Source: a virus. Taken from it: a DNA stretch of 24,733 nt. Positions 4,006 through 24,733 of the stretch are shown piece after piece. The position numbers and the translations under genes were made by a program. Position 1 is the first letter of the stretch; every line of letters starts with the position of its first letter. The stretch is taken from positions 1-24,733 of IMG/VR virus record IMGVR_UViG_3300021432_000096; one strand, given 5' to 3'. The notes under the pieces are model-generated. The model did no database searches, was not told where the DNA came from, and was given only the letters and a program-made list of their open reading frames with translations.

Positions 4006-4208
4006 CAGCGCCCCCGCATCCGACCGCTCCCGAGCGGGCGCATCGGCATCCGGTTCGGCGGTGTCCGCTCGAACGGGTCCCGGATCTGGTCCGGGTCCAA
4101 CGCCCGCTCCCCGGTGCCCCCGAGGGCTCCCGGCAGCCGGGGCGTCGTCGGTCCTCGAATCGCCCGGAGGGCACTCTGCGTGCCCGGCCGGGGAACGAAG
4201 CCAGCCAC
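4005..4208 (-). CDS. Small basic Pro/Arg-rich protein (67 aa)
   Basis: The proposed GTG start at 4208 uses the last base of the upstream TAG stop (TAGTG), and the stop TGA at 4005-4007 overlaps the next ATG. The peptide begins MAGFVPRPGTQSALRAIRGP, includes LGGTGERALDPDQIRDPFER, and ends with an Arg/Met-rich tail. It has no membrane segment or known motif. Its place in a chain of overlapping short genes between the capsid and adaptor genes suggests a minor structural or assembly role, but nothing in the sequence proves this. The start codon is the weak point: no separate ribosome-binding site is seen, so expression would depend on coupling. Confidence 0.5.
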   Translation of the reverse strand: MAGFVPRPGTQSALRAIRGPTTPRLPGALGGTGERALDPDQIRDPFERTPPNRMPMRPLGSGRMRGR

Positions 4209-4375
4209 TAGCGCCGTCCCTGGGTGCTCCGGCCCATGCCGCGCTTCCCGGCGCTGGTCCGGAGGAACGCCCCCCGGCTGTTGACGGCCGGCGTGGCATC
4301 CTTCCTCGGCACCGTCGGGCCACCGCCCGGCTTCGCGGTGTATCCCCTCGTCACACTCGGCTGATCTGCTGCCAT
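4208..4375 (-). CDS. Small basic protein (55 aa)
   Basis: The ATG at 4375 is preceded by a clear AAAGGAG ribosome-binding site about eight bases upstream (4383-4389). The peptide begins MAADQPSVTRGYTAKPGGGP, continues with VPRKDATPAVNSRGAFLR and ends in a run of Gly, Arg and Lys. It is strongly basic and probably disordered, like the small proteins that follow it. The good ribosome-binding site and the coupled TAGTG junction downstream support a real gene. A long reading of another frame through this region has no ribosome-binding site and unnatural composition, and I rejected it. Function unknown. Confidence 0.65.
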   Translation of the reverse strand: MAADQPSVTRGYTAKPGGGPTVPRKDATPAVNSRGAFLRTSAGKRGMGRSTQGRR

Positions 4376-4400
4376 GGTCGTTCTCCTTTGCCCTGATGAT

Positions 4401-4415
4401 GCTTATTTTATAAGC
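4401..4415. promoter_or_regulatory. AT-rich palindrome in the leader of the 55-aa gene
   Basis: Within the 53-base gap 4376-4428 there is a perfect 6-bp inverted repeat, GCTTAT-TTT-ATAAGC. It is the only strongly AT-rich stretch in this GC-rich area. On the minus strand it contains TATAAAAT, which could serve as a -10 element, but no good -35 box is seen at the expected distance. It has no following T-run on the minus strand, so it is not a standard terminator. It may be a promoter, an operator or an RNA processing hairpin; these cannot be told apart by eye. Confidence 0.3.
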
Positions 4416-4428
4416 GCCCCTAGGACAT

Positions 4429-4923
4429 TTAGCGACGTCCGCCGCGATTACGTGAGGTAAGACGCCCTGTTGGCATCCGGGGCCCGAGCTTCGCCTCGGG
4501 GCGCTCCGCATCGCGGGGCTCCGTGGCGTCTTCCCGGGGACTCTCCGTGTCTCGCCCGGAGGGGTCACGGGCGATGAGCAGGAGCGCCCGGGCACTCGGG
4601 GCGTCCCGTGTCGCCGCCTGCGTGTCCCGGTCCGTGCTCTCGCTCCGGGGGGTGATGAGGCTGCTATCGCCCCCGGTGTCTCGAGCGCCCTGATCCGGGG
4701 ACGCATCAGGGCGCTGTCCGATAGCAGCGAAGTGCTGACTGAGCCGGGGCTGCCCCTGCATACGCCCCTTGAGGGCGTTCAGGTGCCGTACCGTCTCCGT
4801 TGCATGGGCCGCCCCGTGACGGGCGTTGTAGAGGGCCGAGTCGAGGTGGTGGACCTGCGACTGGTCCGCGTCCCGAGGGGTTGGGGGCGGCATGTAGGGC
4901 GCTCCGCTGGTAGGGCCAGCCAT
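4429..4923 (-). CDS. Disordered hydrophilic protein (164 aa)
   Basis: ATG at 4923 overlaps the stop of the 62-aa gene upstream (TGATG). The N-terminal 70 residues contain VHHLDSALYNARHG and HLNALKGRMQGQPRLSQHF, which could form helices. The remaining about 95 residues are rich in Asp, Arg, Ser, Thr and Pro (for example ARDPSGRDTESPREDATEP) and are probably disordered. No catalytic motif or membrane segment is visible. Such hydrophilic tails are common in small head-associated or scaffold-like phage proteins, but I do not recognise this one. It ends 53 bases before the next start, the longest gap in this cluster. Confidence 0.6.
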   Translation of the reverse strand: MAGPTSGAPYMPPPTPRDADQSQVHHLDSALYNARHGAAHATETVRHLNALKGRMQGQPRLSQHFAAIGQRPDASPDQGARDTGGDSSLITPRSESTDRDTQAATRDAPSARALLLIARDPSGRDTESPREDATEPRDAERPEAKLGPRMPTGRLTSRNRGGRR

Positions 4924-9643: not shown

Positions 9644-12600
9644 CTACGCCGCCGTGGCTGATGCTGCATGTCCTGCATCTTGGGAAGGTGCGGGCCCGTT
9701 TGCAACGGGCGGTCCGCCGCCCGGAGGTCCCGGGGGCGCATTGCCTGCCCCGGGCGGCCCTCCCGGACCCGGCGGGGCGCTCTGCATCTGCGTCTGCAAC
9801 TGCTGGAGCAAGGCCATCTTGTGGGCCTGATAGTGCTGCATGTAGGCCATCTTCGCCGCCGGGCTCTTGGCGTCGAACGACGGGTCCTTGATCTGCGGCA
9901 GGATATCCATGAGGTGCGTCTCGTTGTTGTCGGTCTCGTTGATCGGCACCTGCTGCCCCTGATCGAGGATGCTGTTCTCCTTCTGCTGACGGCGCCGGTC
10001 CGGGCCGATCTCGGTCTCGAAGTCCTGCAGGTTCAACCGCTCGATGATCTTCTGCCGCTGCACCGGGTCCTGCGGGTTCAGCAAGCCCTGCTCGATGCCG
10101 TCGAAGATGTTCTGGATCTCCGCCGACCGGGAGCGGGGAATGAGACTCGCCGGGTCCACGCTGACGTCCGTGTTGCCCTGCAGGTCGGTCCCCTTGAAGT
10201 ATTGCACCTGCCAATCGGACCCGGGGCCCATGATCCGGATGGTCCGCTCCTGCGGGTAGTGCTGCTGCACGAGCAGAAGCCGCTTGTGCCCCCGCTTGGC
10301 AATGGTCTGCCCCCACCGCTGGAGCCGGGGTACCGCATCCTCCTCGGCCTTCTCCTTGAGAAGGTTGAGCGCGATGCCAGACTTCACGCCCTGCGGGAGG
10401 TCCTGCACGCCCATGCGGCGGTCCTGTGCCAACTCGTCCATGGACGTGAAGCATGCCTGCCGCTCCTCGTAGATCTGGGCGGGGAGGGGCTGCCCGGGCA
10501 CGATCTGGGGCGCCGCAGCCGTCCCGATCGTGTTGTAGAAGATCCACGTCCCGGGGCGCATCTGCTGCATCGCCGGGGTGATGCCTGCACCCTTCGGAGC
10601 GATCACGTGTGGATTCAACATGGTCTTCCGGTTCAGGATGACCTGCGCGTCGATCCCGTTGATCCGCCGCTGGAGCGCCACCATGTCCTCGGCCGGCGTC
10701 CGCCCAGCAAACCGCCCGGGCACCATGTCGTACTTGAACTCGGTGTAGCTGAAATCCCCGGTCGGGGTGCCGTTCTCGTCCTGAATCGGCAGGTCGCCTT
10801 GATAGAGAAGCACCCCGTTCGCCACGATCGCCAGCAGGCCCCGGGGGAACATCTGGGAGGGCTTCTCTTCGTACCGGCGGAGCACCGCCCCGTGGGCGAG
10901 ATACTGGCTACCCCCTTGGTGGGCGCTTCCCTGCATGGACGGCCCGACCAGCGAGAGGAGGGACGATTCGAAGAAGTTGGCGGCGTCGATCCCCGTCTCC
11001 TGCCCGACGTAGGGGCCAAACTCGGGGAAGTTCCGGTCGATCCAGTCGAGGTCTGCGTAGGTCGCCTCGCCGCACCACTGGGCCTGCTCGAGCTTCGTCG
11101 CCTTCGGGTCCCAGTAGAAGTTGAAGAGCATCCGGACGTAGGTCTCGACCTCCCCTTCGGGAATCTCGTCCACAATGGGCTGCCCCGCCTGCGGGTGGGG
11201 CGCCCCCTCCTCATCCAGCTCGGGATGGGTCTCCGGCTGGAGGCTTGCCGTCATCGCCGGCTGCCCATTCGAGAAGGTCTGGGGGACCTGCCCCGCCTGA
11301 TACTGCGCCTGCCCGCAGGTCTGACAGGTCTGCCCAACCATCTGCGGGTCGGTCGTGGCGTGGCAGTTCGGGCAGACCGCCGCCGGCTTCATGGCAGGGG
11401 TCCGGATGACCTGCATCCGGGGCACCCGGAGCACCTTCCCCGCCTGCGGGTTGAAGATGTCGAGGAAGATCACTGTGCCACAGAGCGCCGCGACGAGCCC
11501 GGCTTCCTGCCGGAGCTCGTCCTCACTCGTCACGTCATCGAGGTAGGCTAGAACCTTGTCGCCCACCCCCGCCGCTTCCCGATCCTTCGGGTCCGTGGTG
11601 TTCGGGCGCACACGCCCTGCCGGGCGCACGCGGAGGAGCTGTGCCGTCATAGCGGCCAGCCGGGGCGCCATGGCGTTCGTGACGGGGGTCGGGAACCACG
11701 CGGGGGCACTCCAGCGGGTAAAGCGCCGCGTATTCTCGGAATACTCGATCCACTGGATGCCGCAGTTGTGAACGATGTAGCCATTCGCGACGAAGGTGCC
11801 CGTGGAGGTCTGGATGTCCACCACCTCGCACTCGCCCACATCCCACTCGATCGCGACAACTCGCTCCGTCGCAAGCGGCTTCGCGCAGACATCACCTGCC
11901 TCGATCACCTTTCTGAGAGCTTGGCGGAGTCGAACACTCGGAACCTGCTGAAGTACCCGGATCGTCGTCTGCGCCCCACCATGCGCGTAGATCGTCAGGC
12001 ATTCTTCTGTCCCGCTGGGCACAGGCTCGGAGAGGCTCACTCCAAGGCGTCCCATCAGGTTGATCGCACGTTCTAGGACAAGACCCGGATTCTGGCAGAA
12101 GGCGAGGCCACCACTCCCCATACGTTTCCGCGTTGGGGAAAGCCCGATGTTTTTGATCGTTCCCTCACCATCCAGGAAGCCACCGAGCCAACCGCGATCT
12201 TCAGGCGCGAGGGAAGGGCTCGGGGCATAGCCCACCACGACCAGCGAGCCCATATCTAGCTCACGGGCTTCACGCCATTCCCGTGTTCGGGGATAGTCAC
12301 CAGAACCCGGCTCCATGAGCACGCGATGGTCCGGAGTCAGAGTCAGACTGCGCCCGCTACTGAGGTGCAGCCTCAAGCAACGACGGCGTGAAGTCCGAAC
12401 GGCCTCTACCGTAGCAACTCGCCAATGCCGCTGCTCATCCCCACCCTTTGCGGCTCGACCCGGAGCACCACTCGCCTCGTCCGGAGCCAGCAGGCGGTCC
12501 CCCACTTGGAGAGCACTGATCGGAACCTCCGTGAAGTCCGACCGTAGGACGGGCGTACTCGCTTCTAGGCAGTAGAAGGCAATGGTCTCGAAGATCTGCC

Positions 12601-13449: not shown

Positions 13450-13728
13450 CTACCCTCGGTTGCCCGACATCATCTTGTCGAGCATCTCCTGCCCGTGCTG
13501 CCACTCCGCCATCGGGACTTGGCGCCCATCGACCTCCACAAACTCGTTCCCCTTCTCGTCCCGAATGATGCCCGTCGGGCCCATCGGCATCTGCCCCCGA
13601 ACCACAGCAAGAGCGGTCGGATTGGCAAGAGCAAGGAGCTTGTCCACGAGGGCGGCGTTCTGTCCCCGGAGGTAGGCCAGCTCGGAGTCCCGGGCCTGAC
13701 AACCGAGGCAGACTAGCGGTGGTGCCAC
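13450..13728 (-). CDS. Small coiled-coil phage protein (92 aa)
   Basis: The proposed GTG start at 13728 overlaps the end of the 59-aa gene by 16 bases; there is no clear ribosome-binding site. The peptide starts MAPPLVCLGCQARDSELAYL, with a CxxC pair and a short heptad-like helix (LRGQNAALVDKLLALANP). A section MGPTGIIRDEKGNEFVEVDG, typical of a short beta-hairpin, follows, then a helical end. The open frame continues upstream to 13923, but that portion is out of character and overlaps two other genes. Small proteins of this style are often found beside phage portal genes; the function is not known to me. Confidence 0.65.
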   Translation of the reverse strand: MAPPLVCLGCQARDSELAYLRGQNAALVDKLLALANPTALAVVRGQMPMGPTGIIRDEKGNEFVEVDGRQVPMAEWQHGQEMLDKMMSGNRG

Positions 13729-13892
13729 GACCGCATCGTGCGGGCGAGGGCCTTCTGGCGCTTCACCCGGGTCGAGTCGCCCGGGTGGGCCTGCAGGTCC
13801 TTCGACGGGATGTTGTGGCCGGACTTCACCCCGAGAGACCGCCTGAGACTGCCCGGTCGTTTTATGGCGTCTTGCACCCACTTCTTTGCCAT
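13713..13892 (-). CDS. Small basic phage protein (59 aa), intact copy next to a homing gene
   Basis: ATG at 13892 is preceded by GGAGG nine bases upstream. The peptide begins MAKKWVQDAIKRPGSLRRSL and continues LGVKSGHNIPSKDLQAHPGD. It is strongly basic and ends in RSWHHR. Short proteins starting with this type of W-V-x-x-AIK-x-PGSLR pattern are frequent in phage late operons and are of unknown role. The first 12 codons use A-ending codons (GCA, CAA, ATA, AAA, CGA), while the rest is GC-ending like its neighbours. A truncated copy with a similar beginning lies at 14480. This suggests that the 5' end arrived with the neighbouring homing endonuclease gene and replaced the original start. Confidence 0.75.
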   Translation of the reverse strand: MAKKWVQDAIKRPGSLRRSLGVKSGHNIPSKDLQAHPGDSTRVKRQKALARTMRSWHHR

Positions 13893-13906
13893 GCGACTCT
13901 GCCTCC

Positions 13907-14452
13907 ATGCCTGATCTATCCACAGACGCGATGGCCGGTTGGATCGCAGGATTCTTCGACGGCGAGGGTTCCGTGATTCACCGAACACAGTGCAGCGGCA
14001 AGCGACACACAACGTACTTCCTCACTGTCGGGAATACCGACCCAGTGCTGATGCACACCTGCTCCCGCTACCTGCTGGCACTCGGGATCGCACACACCGA
14101 GTTCCAAAATCGCAGGCGTCCACCACGTAAGCCATTCGCCGTTCTGCACATCTGCCGCGCAGAAGCGATCCAGCGATTCGCGAAGATCGTCCATCTCCAA
14201 GCACCCGAAAAACAGCGACGTCTCGAATGCATCCTGCGCTGGGTACAGCGCCCACGTATCTCTCGCTGGGACAAGCGCCGAGAAGCCATTGGGAACCTCT
14301 GGAAAGCCGGTCACTCGGTGCGCTGCATCGCTAACCAACTCGCAGTCAGAGGCTCCCACTCCCGCGTCAGCAATCAGATACGGCTCCTTGGGTTCACTGT
14401 GCCACCACAGGGGAAGGGGCGCAAAATCTGCCGTGATCCGGCGTGCGCTTGA
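13907..14452 (+). CDS. Free-standing LAGLIDADG homing endonuclease with C-terminal HTH
   Basis: This is the only gene on the plus strand. The chosen ATG at 13907 gives 181 aa; an upstream TTG is possible and no strong ribosome-binding site is seen. The single LAGLIDADG motif is WIAGFFDGEGS at residues 12-22. It is followed by the typical beta-strand and helix pattern (TYFLTVGNTDPVLMHTCSRY, then LLALGIAHTEFQNRR). Residues about 125-165 (REAIGNLWKAGHSVRCIANQ and following) look like a helix-turn-helix DNA-binding domain. With one motif it would act as a homodimer. It lies antisense to the operon; its start faces the intact 59-aa gene and its stop overlaps the truncated copy. Single-motif enzymes of this kind cut DNA at a long site and copy themselves into it. 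The DNA here is less GC-rich in codon choice than its surroundings. Confidence 0.88.
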   Translation: MPDLSTDAMAGWIAGFFDGEGSVIHRTQCSGKRHTTYFLTVGNTDPVLMHTCSRYLLALGIAHTEFQNRRRPPRKPFAVLHICRAEAIQRFAKIVHLQAPEKQRRLECILRWVQRPRISRWDKRREAIGNLWKAGHSVRCIANQLAVRGSHSRVSNQIRLLGFTVPPQGKGRKICRDPACA

Positions 14453-14480
14453 TCGCTTTCTGCACCCACCTTCGCGCCAT
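14394..14480 (-). pseudogene. Truncated 5' stub of the 59-aa protein gene
   Basis: ATG at 14480 has a strong AAAGGAG site about eight bases upstream. The frame reads MARRWVQKAIKR, matching the start of the gene at 13892. It then diverges into sequence antisense to the endonuclease gene and stops after 28 codons. The start codon and ribosome-binding site are in the normal place behind the upstream stop at 14499, so this is the original beginning of the gene. It may still be translated into a short peptide. A second ATG at 14498, overlapping that upstream stop, gives an unrelated short frame that I reject. Confidence 0.7.
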
Positions 14481-14498
14481 TGATCCGCTCCTTTGCCA

Positions 14499-15419
14499 TC
14501 ACGAGACCGGCACCGTCATGTAGTAGAGCGTCAGCACGACTGTTCCATCACCTAACTGCGTCGGAGTGATCGCGGTGATGTTGATGGAGAGCCCGACACC
14601 GACACTGGGCCCGTTGGCCGTACAGCCGACCGGGTTGCTGTCCGTGCCGTACTCGGTGCCGGGATTCGTGATGATGAAGCCCGTCACGGCGCCCCCACCA
14701 CCGATGCTCGTGACCTGGCCGATCGCGTCGGCGTTCCCGTAGTTCGTCACCGTGAAGAAATCATTGACGACCCAGCCCGAACCGCCAGCCGCGACCGACG
14801 CGGCTGCGATGGTGCCGACGTTCAAGGTGTGGCCGGCGCCGATGAACGCCTCCAGGCCCGTATTCGCGAACGTCGAAACGGGATCGAACAGACTTTGAGT
14901 GAACGAGAACGGAGACGGGGTGAAGGTTGTTCCGAGGTAAAAACCCGCGACATTACGATTCGCCAGGACGTTCAGGAACCCCGCCGCTGTGACAGTGATG
15001 AATCCCGTAGAGCCGACATAGCGGATTTGGATGTCGCCACCATTGAAAAGATCGTAGACGTGCGTGCCGGCGGTCAGCACATACTGCCCACCGATGGGCA
15101 CGATCAGCCTCCCCGCCCCCGGCGCCGAGAGCACCGCCCGCGGGCTTGTCGGACTGAGCGCCAGGAGCACCGCCCGGTCGAGCGTGACGGTCGCGGTCTG
15201 GATACCGCCCGTCACAGCAGGGCCTGTTGAGCCCGTCGCGCCTGTCGGTCCCGTGACGCCGGTAGCACCCGTTGGCCCGGTCGGGCCACCTGACGGTCCC
15301 GTAGGTCCCGTCGCCCCGATGCCTCCGCACCCCGACTGCCCACAGGTCGCCTGCGGAGCGGCCAAGCGGGGCACAGCAAGAGCCCAAAAGCCCAGCAACA
15401 GGAGCGTCCAACACTTCAT
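14499..15419 (-). CDS. Exported protein with a short collagen-like stretch (306 aa)
   Basis: ATG at 15419 overlaps the upstream stop (ATGA). The N-terminus MKCWTLLLLGFWALAVPRLA is a typical signal peptide with probable cleavage near residue 25. Residues about 35-68 form G-x-y triplets (GATGPTGPS and [13 protein letters not shown] type). The rest is beta-rich (TATVTLDRAVLLALSPTSPR, IVPIGGQYVLTAGTHVYDLF) and looks like a fibre or adhesin head domain, with GGGGAVTGFIITNPGTEYG-type turns near the end. A Sec-exported collagen-like protein is seldom seen in a phage structural operon. It is the fourth of four consecutive signal-peptide genes, ahead of the homing insertion. Confidence 0.8.
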   Translation of the reverse strand: MKCWTLLLLGFWALAVPRLAAPQATCGQSGCGGIGATGPTGPSGGPTGPTGATGVTGPTGATGSTGPAVTGGIQTATVTLDRAVLLALSPTSPRAVLSAPGAGRLIVPIGGQYVLTAGTHVYDLFNGGDIQIRYVGSTGFITVTAAGFLNVLANRNVAGFYLGTTFTPSPFSFTQSLFDPVSTFANTGLEAFIGAGHTLNVGTIAAASVAAGGSGWVVNDFFTVTNYGNADAIGQVTSIGGGGAVTGFIITNPGTEYGTDSNPVGCTANGPSVGVGLSINITAITPTQLGDGTVVLTLYYMTVPVS

Positions 15420-16376: not shown

Positions 16377-18916
<2,540 letters not shown>

Positions 18917-18920
<4 letters not shown>

Positions 18921-20701: not shown

Positions 20702-21078
20702 GCTGCCCTCATCCGCTCCCGTTCACGTTGGAGCAACTGCCGGATCGCCCGCGCCAGCCCCTCCGCCGTGATGTCGGGCAGCGTCGATTCCACGATGTAC
20801 CGGAACGTGTAAGGCCACGGGCACCCCGCGTTCTTCGCCCGCTCCCCGTCCACGTCCTCGATCCACGCGAGCACATTCAGCGCCAGTGCCCGCTCGATCT
20901 TGCCCGGGCCGAGTCCCCGCAGGAGATCCACCAGCATGTTGTCGAGCACACTGACGCGCAGCGCCTGCGCCGGGCCGCCGAGCCCGATCGTCTTGTGCAT
21001 CGCCCGCCACTGCACGGGCATCATCGCATCCAACTGGAAGCGGTAGTCCAAGTCGCGGAACTCTGGAACCGCTCTCAC
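20698..21078 (-). CDS. Helical protein of unknown function (126 aa)
   Basis: GTG at 21078 overlaps the stop of the HNH gene (GTGA), and its own stop overlaps the peptidase start. The peptide begins MRAVPEFRDLDYRFQLDAMM and has several helices, including ALRVSVLDNMLVDLLRGLG and IERALALNVLAWIEDVDGE. It ends with a basic helix. Its place directly before the endolysin could suggest a lysis partner, but no clear transmembrane helix is visible, so a holin assignment is not supported. Unknown function. Confidence 0.7.
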   Translation of the reverse strand: MRAVPEFRDLDYRFQLDAMMPVQWRAMHKTIGLGGPAQALRVSVLDNMLVDLLRGLGPGKIERALALNVLAWIEDVDGERAKNAGCPWPYTFRYIVESTLPDITAEGLARAIRQLLQRERERMRAA

Positions 21079-21608
21079 TGCAATACCTTCGTCGGGAAGT
21101 TCAACGAAGCAAACTCACCATGGGCACTACGAGCTGCTTCATCATAGGCCAGCGCCGCCTCCTCCGCTGTCGCAAAGAGGCCGATGTGCCGTCGCTTGCC
21201 ATCGACACGTATCAGGGCGGCGTACCGGCCACAGTGCTTCCAGTAGGTGACTCCGTGATACCCACTCGTGTTGTTGGACTGACGCTTTCGATTCCTCATG
21301 TTTTGAGCATGCGTCGCCAGTCGGAGGTTAGACCGTCGGTTATCCAACCCATCTCGGTTAACGTGATCTACGATCATCCCCACGGGAGCACCCATGATGA
21401 TTCGATGCATCCCCAAAGTCACCCCATGGACCGAGTGACTAACCGCGTAACAGGCCCCTGACCTGTCGCGTCGCACATTCCAGCGATACGGCGAGACAAG
21501 ATGTACGTCCGCCGCGTCAAGAATGGCCCGCACGCCGCCGGCCATCAGCACTACAGCAAGACCACCGGGCAGGTAGAGGTACTCATTCGGCCTGATTCGA
21601 CGCTTCAT
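21075..21608 (-). CDS. HNH-AP2 homing endonuclease
   Basis: The product has 177 aa; ATG at 21608 follows AGAGGGG and overlaps the previous stop (ATGA). The N-terminal about 70 residues form a beta-domain that ends in GMHRII. The HNH core follows: IVDHVNRDGLDNRRSNLRLA, with the catalytic His in DHVN and Asn/His positions in LDNRRSNLR. The C-terminal AP2-type DNA-binding domain runs from SGYHGVTYWK to about residue 170 (GLFATAEEAALAYDEAARSA). This is the standard architecture of free-standing HNH homing endonucleases in phages; they nick or cut a site in sister phages and copy themselves there. It is joined by overlapping codons to both neighbours, so it is likely co-transcribed. A relative begins at 224. 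Confidence 0.93.
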   Translation of the reverse strand: MKRRIRPNEYLYLPGGLAVVLMAGGVRAILDAADVHLVSPYRWNVRRDRSGACYAVSHSVHGVTLGMHRIIMGAPVGMIVDHVNRDGLDNRRSNLRLATHAQNMRNRKRQSNNTSGYHGVTYWKHCGRYAALIRVDGKRRHIGLFATAEEAALAYDEAARSAHGEFASLNFPTKVLQ

Positions 21609-21777: not shown

Positions 21778-21924
21778 TCAGCTCCTCCGGGTAAAGACCC
21801 GGTTCAGCTTCCGCATCTCCGCCGCCGAGCGCGGCTCGATGCTCCGTTGACTCTCGTGGCGCGGCTGCTGCTGCGCCCGGGGTCGCGTCTCGATCTTCCG
21901 CTTACTGATCGGGTCTCTTTTCAT
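21778..21924 (-). CDS. Small basic protein (48 aa)
   Basis: ATG at 21924 overlaps the stop of the large Thr-rich gene (ATGA). The peptide begins MKRDPISKRKIETRPRAQQQ and is rich in Arg, Lys and Gln; it ends KLNRVFTRRS. The stop lies two bases before the next start. It looks disordered and may bind nucleic acid or the preceding protein's product. A longer frame reading through the Thr tract is a shadow. Confidence 0.55.
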   Translation of the reverse strand: MKRDPISKRKIETRPRAQQQPRHESQRSIEPRSAAEMRKLNRVFTRRS

Positions 21925-24733
21925 ACGAGGGTTGTGGTGGTCACGCACCGCCGACACCGCTTGCCCCGGCAGGGGCGCGTGGTGGTCGTCACGGTGCTGG
22001 TGGTGGTGGTCGTCGTCGGAACCGTCGTCGTGGTGCTCGTCGTGGTGGTGGAGGTTGTAGTCGTCGTGGTCGTGGTTGGCAGCGTTATCGTCGTGGTGGT
22101 CGAAGTGGTCGTTGTAGTCGTCGTGGTGGTCGTCGTGGTTGTGGTTGTCGTGGTCGAGGTGGTGGTGGAAGTCGTTGTCGTGGTGGTTGTGGTGGTAGTC
22201 GTCGTGGTCGTCGTGGTTGTGCTGGTCGTCGTCGTGGTCGTGGTGGTGGTTGTGGTCGTCGTGATGCAGGTACAGGTTCCGACCACGTCCGCACAGACCT
22301 GACCCATCGGGCAATCCCCGACACAGGCCGGGTCCACCGCACCCGCGCACGAACTCCCAATGGTGGTCGTGGTCGTGGAGGTCGTCGTGGTCGTGGTTGT
22401 GGTGGTCGAGGTGGTGGTCGTCGTGGTGGTTGTTGTCGTCGTGGTCGTGGTCGTGGTGCTGGTGGTGGTCGTGGTAGTCGTCGTGGTCGTGGTCGTCGTC
22501 GTCGTGGAAGTGGTGGTCGTCGTGGTCGTTGTCGTTGTCGTTGTCGTCGTCGTCGTGGTGGTGCTGGTGGTTGTCGTCGTCGTTGACGTCGTGGTGGTGG
22601 TCGTGGTCGGCGGCACTTCGTCGTTCTCCAGCGCCAACGTCCGCGTGGTGCCCGGCACCAACACCTGCCGAAGGAACGTCGGTGCCGCCGGAGTCGTGAA
22701 GTCGTAGACCTCCACGCCCTGATTCGCGGACGCATGCGTGAGCGCCGGCACCGTCCCAAAGAGGAGTGCCGGACTCGTCCCGAAGGCGAGCAGCGCCGAC
22801 TCTGTCCGACCAGCAATCGACCCGAGGATCGTGACCGCCCCAGGCGTGGTCGTGTCCAGCGCCCGGATCGTCGTCAACCCGTCGTAGACATAGGCCCGGT
22901 TCGGGACCGTCGCATTCGCCACCACGGTCGCCGCCGTCGCGAACGTCCCGAGAAGCGTCGGGGCATTTGGGTTGGTGATGTCGACCGTCAGGAAGTTCGT
23001 CGTGGCCGCGAGGTAGGCCCGCGTGCCGGCGAGCGCCACGTCCGTCACCGCCGTCGCGGTATTCAGGCTGCTCGCGATGAAGGGGAAGGGCGGGTTCCCG
23101 ACATAGACCACCTGGAAGCCGGGATTCGTGCCCCCCGTCGCGATGTAGGCGTAGTTCCCCGTGACGCGGAGCACCTCGCCATTCGCCACCGTCACGCGCC
23201 CAAGGATGGCCGGGCTCGACGGCGTGGTGACGTTGATCGTCACGAGATCGGTGTGAGCCGGGTTCCCCGAGACCACCTCCAGCGCGTAGGCCGTGTTCCC
23301 GACCACAGCCATCCCCCTCAGAATCCGGTTGACCGCCATCGCGCCCGCGAGCGTCGGGGCATGGGGATTGGTTGCGCTCCCCACGTTCAGCTCGGGGAAG
23401 ACCAAGCTCCCTGTTGGCACCGGGGCCACGAGCGACGGATTGACTCCGATCCCGAAGCTCTCCGTGAGGCCGTAGCGATGCGTCAGGAGTGCCGGAGAGG
23501 TCGGGCTCGACACATCATAGGCGACGAGCCCCTGCTGTAAGGAGGCGTTCGGACTCGCCAGCAACGCCACGTTGTTCGGTGCCGCCGCGACACGCAGAGC
23601 ATTGTAGCCCCGCGCCACTCCCTGGAGCGACGGGCTCGAGAGATTCGACACGTTGACCGTCCGGAAGCCGTTCGCGTCCGTCCCGCTCACCGTGTAGAGC
23701 GTCGTGCCCTGCAGGGAGACCCCGACCGGCGCGAAGCCGCCCGCCGTGAAGGTGCTAAGCAGGATCGGGTTCCCGTTCCCGGTCACGTCAAGGATACGGA
23801 GGCTGGCCGAGTCCCCAACGAACGCCGTGGCTGCGTGACCACCTGACGAGCCCGTCACAGTGATGCCCTCGGCATCCGTTGTCGCCAGCGTCCCGGTGAG
23901 GGTCGGCACCGTCGGCGTCGCCGCGCTGGCGATCCGAACTCCCGAGGTGCCGAGAGCGAGGTACAACGTCGTCCCGGACAGCACCATGTCCTGACAGCCG
24001 TTCGGGAGCGCCACAGAGCCCATCACGGTCGGGCTCGACGGGTTACTCAGGTCGATTACCTGCAACGCCACCGTCGCCGGGTTCCCGGGCGTCGTCTTCA
24101 CGGAGTAGCCCCGGTTCCCGTTGGTCGCAGCGCAATGATAGACGCCCGCGAGGCTGCCCTTCGTGATCGGCGTTGCGGGCGTCGTCACGTCGACTACCGT
24201 GAGACCGCCCGCACCTTGTGCATTCAAGGACAGCGTACCCGAGACGGACACGCGGTCCCCCGTGAAGGGCGGATTCGCTCCTCCAAGCGGTGTCAGTGTG
24301 ACCGGGCTCCCGATGCTAACCGTAGAGAGCCCGAACTGATCGGAGGCGACATAGGCCCGATTCGCCCCCTGATCTACGATGACATCCTCGGCCTGCCCGA
24401 CATTCGGGACGAAGCCGACGAGAGCCTGCGGGCTCGTCAGGCGGATGACGTCGACTACGGCGGCGGAGTCGCTGGCGTAGATGACTGGGCCAAGGATGGT
24501 GGTGCTCGTAGTGGTACTGGTGGAAGTGGTGGTCGTGCTTGCAGCGGTGGTGGAAGTCGTGGTGCTGGTCGTGGTCGTCGTAGAAGGAACGGTGGTAGTG
24601 GTGCTAGTGGTTGTCGTAGTCGTGGTGGGCGGCACGGATGATGTGGTCGTGGTCGACAGAAAGGTCGTCGTCGTAGACGAACCCCCAGTCGTCGTGGTGG
24701 TCGTGCCCCCGCCGGAGGTCGTCGTGGTCGACG
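21921..24733 (-). CDS. Giant Thr-rich, mucin-like LVIVD beta-propeller protein (5' end outside window)
   Basis: The frame is open to the window end at 24733, so the true start lies outside; 936 residues are visible. In order they are a Thr/Ser stalk with Gly-rich breaks (24733-24497) and a beta-propeller of about 625 residues (about 24494-22620). A second Thr/Ser stalk (22614-22364) is followed by a six-Cys module (IGSSCAGAVDPACVGD, then CPMGQVCADVVGTCTC). A third stalk follows, and then a Cys-rich tail (RPCRGKRCRRC). In the propeller a motif of the form N/T-P-x-x-P-x-x-x-G-x repeats about twelve times (for example NPSSPTVMGS, TPSSPAILGR, NPNAPTLLGT), as in LVIVD repeats. Such proteins are secreted or surface proteins in bacteria; Thr runs are potential O-glycosylation stalks. 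It is followed by a 48-aa gene overlapping its stop. Confidence 0.75.
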   Translation of the reverse strand, partial: STTTTSGGGTTTTTTGGSSTTTTFLSTTTTSSVPPTTTTTTTSTTTTVPSTTTTTSTTTSTTAASTTTTSTSTTTSTTILGPVIYASDSAAVVDVIRLTSPQALVGFVPNVGQAEDVIVDQGANRAYVASDQFGLSTVSIGSPVTLTPLGGANPPFTGDRVSVSGTLSLNAQGAGGLTVVDVTTPATPITKGSLAGVYHCAATNGNRGYSVKTTPGNPATVALQVIDLSNPSSPTVMGSVALPNGCQDMVLSGTTLYLALGTSGVRIASAATPTVPTLTGTLATTDAEGITVTGSSGGHAATAFVGDSASLRILDVTGNGNPILLSTFTAGGFAPVGVSLQGTTLYTVSGTDANGFRTVNVSNLSSPSLQGVARGYNALRVAAAPNNVALLASPNASLQQGLVAYDVSSPTSPALLTHRYGLTESFGIGVNPSLVAPVPTGSLVFPELNVGSATNPHAPTLAGAMAVNRILRGMAVVGNTAYALEVVSGNPAHTDLVTINVTTPSSPAILGRVTVANGEVLRVTGNYAYIATGGTNPGFQVVYVGNPPFPFIASSLNTATAVTDVALAGTRAYLAATTNFLTVDITNPNAPTLLGTFATAATVVANATVPNRAYVYDGLTTIRALDTTTPGAVTILGSIAGRTESALLAFGTSPALLFGTVPALTHASANQGVEVYDFTTPAAPTFLRQVLVPGTTRTLALENDEVPPTTTTTTTSTTTTTTSTTTTTTTTTTTTTTTTTTSTTTTTTTTTTTTTTTSTTTTTTTTTTTTTTTTSTTTTTTTTTSTTTTTIGSSCAGAVDPACVGDCPMGQVCADVVGTCTCITTTTTTTTTTTTTSTTTTTTTTTTTTTTTTTSTTTSTTTTTTTTTTTTTTTTTSTTTTITLPTTTTTTTTSTTTTSTTTTVPTTTTTTSTVTTTTRPCRGKRCRRCVTTTTLV
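21975..22263 (-). repeat. Third Thr/Ser-coding tract
   Basis: A near-continuous run of ACN codons with scattered TCN/AGC codons, forming an imperfect trinucleotide microsatellite (GTC/GTG/GTA units on the plus strand). Period three keeps the frame when units are lost or gained. Confidence 0.85.
22364..22614 (-). repeat. Second Thr/Ser-coding tract
   Basis: An imperfect trinucleotide tract encoding about 84 residues, nearly all Thr with single Ser at intervals. It separates the beta-propeller from the six-Cys module and would be a rigid stalk. On the plus strand it produces long Val-rich open frames that are artefacts. Confidence 0.85.
24497..24733 (-). repeat. First Thr/Ser-coding tract, cut by window end
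   Basis: A Thr/Ser tract with Gly-Gly-Gly and SS breaks that reaches the window end, showing the protein continues outside. It precedes the beta-propeller. Confidence 0.8.

Follow-up and report, generated by a model that had tools for sequence, protein, structure and literature searches.

A LAGLIDADG homing endonuclease gene between two divergent 5′ ends of a small virion-type gene in a metagenomic phage

Organization of the locus

The DNA analysed here is a stretch of 24,733 bases from one metagenomic virus record (IMGVR_UViG_3300021432_000096), called the window below, and the finding rests on this single contig. All genes around the locus are on the minus strand except for a plus-strand homing endonuclease gene (HEG), the only gene found here that opposes the surrounding ones. 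Read in the minus-strand sense, the gene order is a collagen-like gene, a stub of a small gene, the antisense HEG, an intact small gene and a gene of the 93-amino-acid class.

The collagen-like gene (14499–15419, minus strand), recognized by a weak match to Collagen, lies upstream of the stub. Directly 3′ of its stop follows a leader of 18 bases (14481–14498, minus strand) with a good Shine-Dalgarno sequence, AAAGGAG, ahead of the start codon of the stub (AAAGGAG-CGGATCA-ATG). The stub begins with the ATG at 14480 and comprises 12 codons (14445–14480, minus strand; MARRWVQKAIKR), after which the frame continues into unrelated codons (TPDHGRFCAPSPVVAQ) and a stop, making a dead end of 28 amino acids in all. 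The free-standing HEG (13907–14452, plus strand) encodes a LAGLIDADG protein of 181 amino acids, and its stop codon TGA (14450–14452) lies inside the stub, antisense to stub codons 10–11. A HEG stop codon made of stub sequence is what would be expected for an insertion into that gene. The HEG start codon is abutted by the leader of the intact copy (13893–13906, minus strand), in which a good Shine-Dalgarno sequence at 13901–13906 again precedes the start (GGAGGC-AGAGTCGC-ATG). The intact small gene (13713–13892, minus strand) runs from the ATG at 13892 to a stop ending at 13713 and encodes a protein of 59 amino acids (MAKKWVQDAIKRPGSLRR...) starting with MAKKWVQDAIKRPGSLRRSLGVK..., which has the motif of a family resembling the fusellovirus protein VP2. 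Its stop is overlapped by the next gene of the operon, that of the 93-amino-acid class (13450–13728, minus strand), whose homologues mark synteny in the relatives.

The original prediction, made from the letters of the window, placed a plus-strand LAGLIDADG gene between a truncated start at 14480 and an intact gene start at 13892, and this anatomy was confirmed. It also stated that a divergent 5′ end restores the open frame, and the downstream copy is indeed complete: it has a ribosome-binding site of its own, and its 5′ end has diverged synonymously. If the break is placed between codons 12 and 13, the inserted segment would be 588 bp long (13857–14444).

The two 5′ ends

The codons of the stub are ATG GCG CGA AGG TGG GTG CAG AAA GCG ATC AAG CGC, and those of the intact 5′ end (13857–13892, minus strand) are ATG GCA AAG AAG TGG GTG CAA GAC GCC ATA AAA CGA. 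As had been predicted, the two peptides agree at 9 of 12 positions and the codons differ; at the nucleotide level 24 of the 36 bases are the same. The best 12-residue match in 60 codon-block shuffles of the window was 6/12, so that the match between the two ends is not due to chance, and both belong to the same family. Where the residue is kept and the codon is degenerate, the two copies differ in six of seven codons; the probability that six such codons all differ is 0.0018 if both copies are drawn randomly from the codon usage of this phage. Among unrelated phages, the best matches of the W-to-R stretch were 21/24 for the stub and 19/24 for the intact copy, in a comparison limited to 36 bases.

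The leader of the stub (14488–14499, minus strand) holds a 12-mer, ATGGCAAAGGAG, that agrees at 11 of 12 positions with the start of the intact copy (13881–13892, minus strand). The window contains only two 12-mers of this type (0.05 expected), and none was present in 144 Shine-Dalgarno leaders of the relatives.

Codon usage changes within the intact gene. The third position is G or C in 7 of the first 12 codons and in 46 of the 48 afterwards, and codons 13–59 fit the codon usage of the phage (P 0.96), whereas codons 1–12 fit it poorly (P 0.00045). The cumulative log-likelihood ratio of phage-like against HEG-like usage reaches its minimum exactly at codon 12, where the homology to the stub ends. 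Several ordinary gene starts of this phage, however, are also rich in codons ending in A or T. Among 20 starts ranked by log-likelihood ratio, that of the intact gene is the oddest, i.e., the most HEG-like, but narrowly (-5.58 against -5.11 and -3.95), and in codon likelihood other native starts reach P values of <0.0005, 0.0005 and 0.003 compared with 0.0003 for the intact start. Unusual codons are thus frequent at the gene starts of this phage, which weakens the codon argument: the shift noted in the original prediction is real, but a usage as odd is found at other native starts. As decisive proof of foreign origin codon usage was therefore rejected and the change point discounted; the shift at codons 12/13 is suggestive of only the first 12 codons being foreign.

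The homing endonuclease gene

The HEG product matches LAGLIDADG_3 (PF14528) with 41.7 bits (E 1.4e-10), above the curated cut-off of 22.5, and carries one LAGLIDADG motif (AGWIAGFFDGEG) together with a C-terminal region resembling a helix-turn-helix (HTH_38, E 0.057). At 59.7% its GC content is lower than that of most of the phage, as is its GC3 of 67%, and neither a promoter nor a ribosome-binding site was recognized for it. The AlphaFold model computed without an alignment had a pLDDT of 56, too low for a structure search, and a search of solved structures gave no convincing relative. Relatives of the HEG were found neither in IMG/VR, searched with peptide patterns and a degenerate motif pattern, nor in GTDB genomes, phage records or plasmids; no second HEG-bearing example is present in these collections, so that the HEG is at most presumed to be mobile. 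When the nucleotide sequence of the region was compared with phage records, the sole match was to collagen repeats. One weak match to the HEG (E 0.49), adjoining a family member in L066, turned out to be the reverse strand of an ordinary gene.

Intron and intein explanations were rejected. Rfam gave no group I intron match at the gathering threshold on either strand, the HEG is antisense to the small gene and not in frame with it as an intein would be, and the second copy of the 5′ end has its own start.

The window contains two further homing-type genes. The portal gene includes an intein of 269 amino acids (CLEAS...VHN; 11765–12571, minus strand) with a LAGLIDADG motif of its own, inserted at FY^CGIQW. 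None of the portals examined in relatives is interrupted by an intein, and the HEG and the portal intein have only the motif in common and are not close copies. A gene for a homing-type endonuclease of 177 amino acids with HNH_3 and AP2 domains (21075–21608, minus strand) is located between structural genes and is the third of the kind within 25 kb.

The small gene in related viruses

Searches with the portal and capsid proteins yielded 19 relatives; the MCP search in GTDB genomes gave no match. In three of the relatives (L014, L024 and L156), which are nearly identical to each other and are probably one phage species, the whole small gene lies directly before a homologue of the same downstream gene, and there is neither a HEG nor a second start. 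The prediction of a HEG lying antisense in the 5′ end of an otherwise uninterrupted gene is thus borne out by a gene that is single and uninterrupted in relatives, but not as far as the empty-site junction: the small protein of these viruses is only 45% identical to that of the window, so that the junction between stub and body cannot be fixed at the base level, and the limits of the 588-bp segment are drawn from the two 5′ ends instead of from a close empty-site relative. No pair of close relatives with and without the HEG was found.

The closest phage, L021, with a portal 74% and a capsid 83% identical to those of the window, has a different small gene in the slot before the 93-amino-acid gene, and the same is true of L007–L009. 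The genes that occupy this slot in the relatives are different small, mostly basic genes (L021 about 250–460, L007 338–514, L008 6716–6931). Such differences even between near relatives indicate that the slot is prone to gene exchange, i.e., a variable cassette position.

The motif KW(I/V)QKAIKRPG is the hallmark of a small basic protein that is very common in viruses, and it is shared with fusellovirus VP2. About 100 members of the family were read out among the matches listed in a degenerate-pattern scan of IMG/VR. Each of these loci has a single copy and none has tandem copies, an argument against an old duplication; HEG-free viruses with both copies in tandem, named in the original prediction as the observation that would overturn it, did not appear. 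The same loci were inspected for homing-type motifs near the family member, and the only case was in L002, where an HNH endonuclease gene (4162–4641) is located directly 3′ of the small gene.

With PF25632, the VP2 family, the small protein of the window scores 18.6 bits, below the cut-off of 27, and over residues 3–22 only, which does not place it in that family; the N-terminal motif KWVQKAIKRPG is nevertheless common to the two, over 20 residues. From its likeness to VP2, a role of the small protein as a DNA-binding protein of the virion is probable. The common small protein of tailed-phage contigs and fusellovirus VP2 have this N-terminal motif in common (L090, near 407, minus strand; L144, 3843–4064); L144, which we take to be SSV1, carries the family motif as VP2. 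One family member, in a record of 618,736 bases, matches PF25632 along the entire protein (E 6.9e-16, with the TTG start entered as M), which hints that proteins of archaeal and bacterial viruses are linked.

Possible origin of the arrangement

The reading that we prefer, and to which we would give slightly better than an even chance, is that a LAGLIDADG HEG inserted antisense between codons 12 and 13 of the small virion-type gene and left behind both a stub and a recoded 5′ end. The original first 12 codons would have stayed upstream as a dead stub, and the gene body would now be read from another 5′ end, situated between the HEG and codon 13 and consisting of a new ribosome-binding site and 12 recoded codons. 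The likely route would be that a break made by the endonuclease was repaired from the sequence of a diverged homologue, so that the HEG and the divergent 5′ end may have entered together. Because the target would be split and the replacement recoded, both should resist the enzyme, presumed here to be active; the carrier should thus be protected against self-cleavage and still make the small protein. More generally, and this we put forward tentatively as the less probable proposition, a phage HEG might take a recoded 5′ end of the target gene along when it moves, a single insertion both repairing the broken gene and giving immunity to further cutting.

The main rival explanation, which we regard as rather unlikely, is the replacement of the whole gene: another phage would have had the HEG upstream of an intact MAKK-type gene, and a cassette exchange would have brought in the HEG and this whole gene, the resident gene losing its body in the event and being reduced to the stub. 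The variable slot of L021 and L007–L009 fits such an event, as do phage nuclease genes reported at the boundaries of genetic exchange (PMC10448857), and the codon shift that would separate codons 1–12 from the body is not diagnostic. Against this, it is codons 13–59 that fit the usage of the phage very well and codons 1–12 that do not, and the stub ends exactly at the codon where usage changes. An old tandem duplication, in which the HEG invaded the upstream of two side-by-side paralogues and the remainder of that copy was deleted, seems improbable; synonymous differences in a conserved protein would suit two long-lived genes, but two copies occur in none of the about 100 family loci, and an extra deletion of exactly codons 13–59 of the first copy would be needed.

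Two further alternatives appear very improbable. The new 5′ end could have been made locally, without a donor, from the leader and the stub of the phage itself, and the rare 12-mer of the stub leader, with its 11/12 match to the intact start and its absence from the leaders of relatives, points in this direction. That match was noticed post hoc, however, and overlaps the ribosome-binding site, the alignment continues only with a gap of 19 bases, and codons 7–12 still differ at every codon. Least probable by a small step is an assembly artefact joining two related phages in one contig: the record is a single metagenomic one and the junctions occur in no second contig, but the operon order, the frame of the HEG and the two ribosome-binding sites show no irregularity, and in a chimera a join within homologous stretches would be more likely than the observed series of stub, HEG and second start.

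Comparison with known mobile elements

The usual insertion sites of free-standing homing genes lie between genes or within a gene, which is then split. In phages, gene splitting is known for mobE in nrdA of Aeh1 and for mobA in the topoisomerase gene of T4 (reviewed in PMC2988022), which like the HEG described here are free-standing and lie within phage coding sequence. These two, however, are HNH and not LAGLIDADG genes, and both halves of their targets are needed and assemble as separate polypeptides, whereas at the present locus the downstream part again has a complete N-terminus, the upstream one being a dead end of 28 amino acids.

A close parallel comes from the mobile ORFs (mORFs) of fungal mitochondria, which replace the 3′ ends of genes, namely atp6 in Allomyces and atp6, atp9, cox2 and nad3 in Glomus (PMC3630166); the original prediction likewise pointed to fungal mitochondrial genes such as atp6. 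Both there and here a LAGLIDADG gene lies in a protein gene, the displaced native end is kept and a divergent replacement end continues the frame. The stub, the HEG and the second 5′ end are found in this order, and the element-free relatives with 45% protein identity have the gene uninterrupted. The two ends are 67% identical in DNA and 75% in protein here, compared with 63.5% and 91% for Glomus atp6 (PMC3630166). The fungal mORFs differ in that they concern the 3′ (C-terminal) end and mitochondria, with transfer supported by related taxa and transcripts; the present element concerns the 5′ end of a phage gene, has its HEG in antisense and is known from one example.

In the mitochondria of Tremella fuciformis, introns carry duplications of the N-terminal part of the host gene (PMC7315562), so that a version for the 5′ end is not new in principle. 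In both systems the N-terminal gene part is present twice, the second time as a divergent homologue, which in Tremella is carried by a mobile element. The Tremella elements are predicted introns of mitochondria, for which carriers and non-carriers were compared within the species, whereas Rfam detected no intron at the present locus. The original prediction knew of no phage case involving the 5′ end in antisense orientation; our literature searches, covering open-licence papers, likewise revealed no phage in which a gene end had been replaced, but the 5′ version as such has the precedent in Tremella.

If the preferred reading, the insertion of a HEG together with a recoded 5′ end, is correct, a strategy of fungal mitochondria would extend to phages, in the form of a 5′-end, antisense counterpart of the fungal atp6 elements. 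A HEG with a substitute gene end could enter the most conserved and most dependable target without killing its carrier, and the abundant viral protein family targeted here, with its nearly invariant N-terminal motif, would be an attractive homing site. The reading would also offer a mechanism by which phages exchange gene ends in a patchwork fashion, and it would account for a gene start that has diverged synonymously although the gene is otherwise conserved.

Other probable structural genes of the window

Three minus-strand genes of the window (14499–15419, 16377–18920 and 21921–24635) encode two collagen-like proteins with long Gly-X-Thr/Pro runs and one protein with very long threonine runs, which are probably fibre-type structural proteins.
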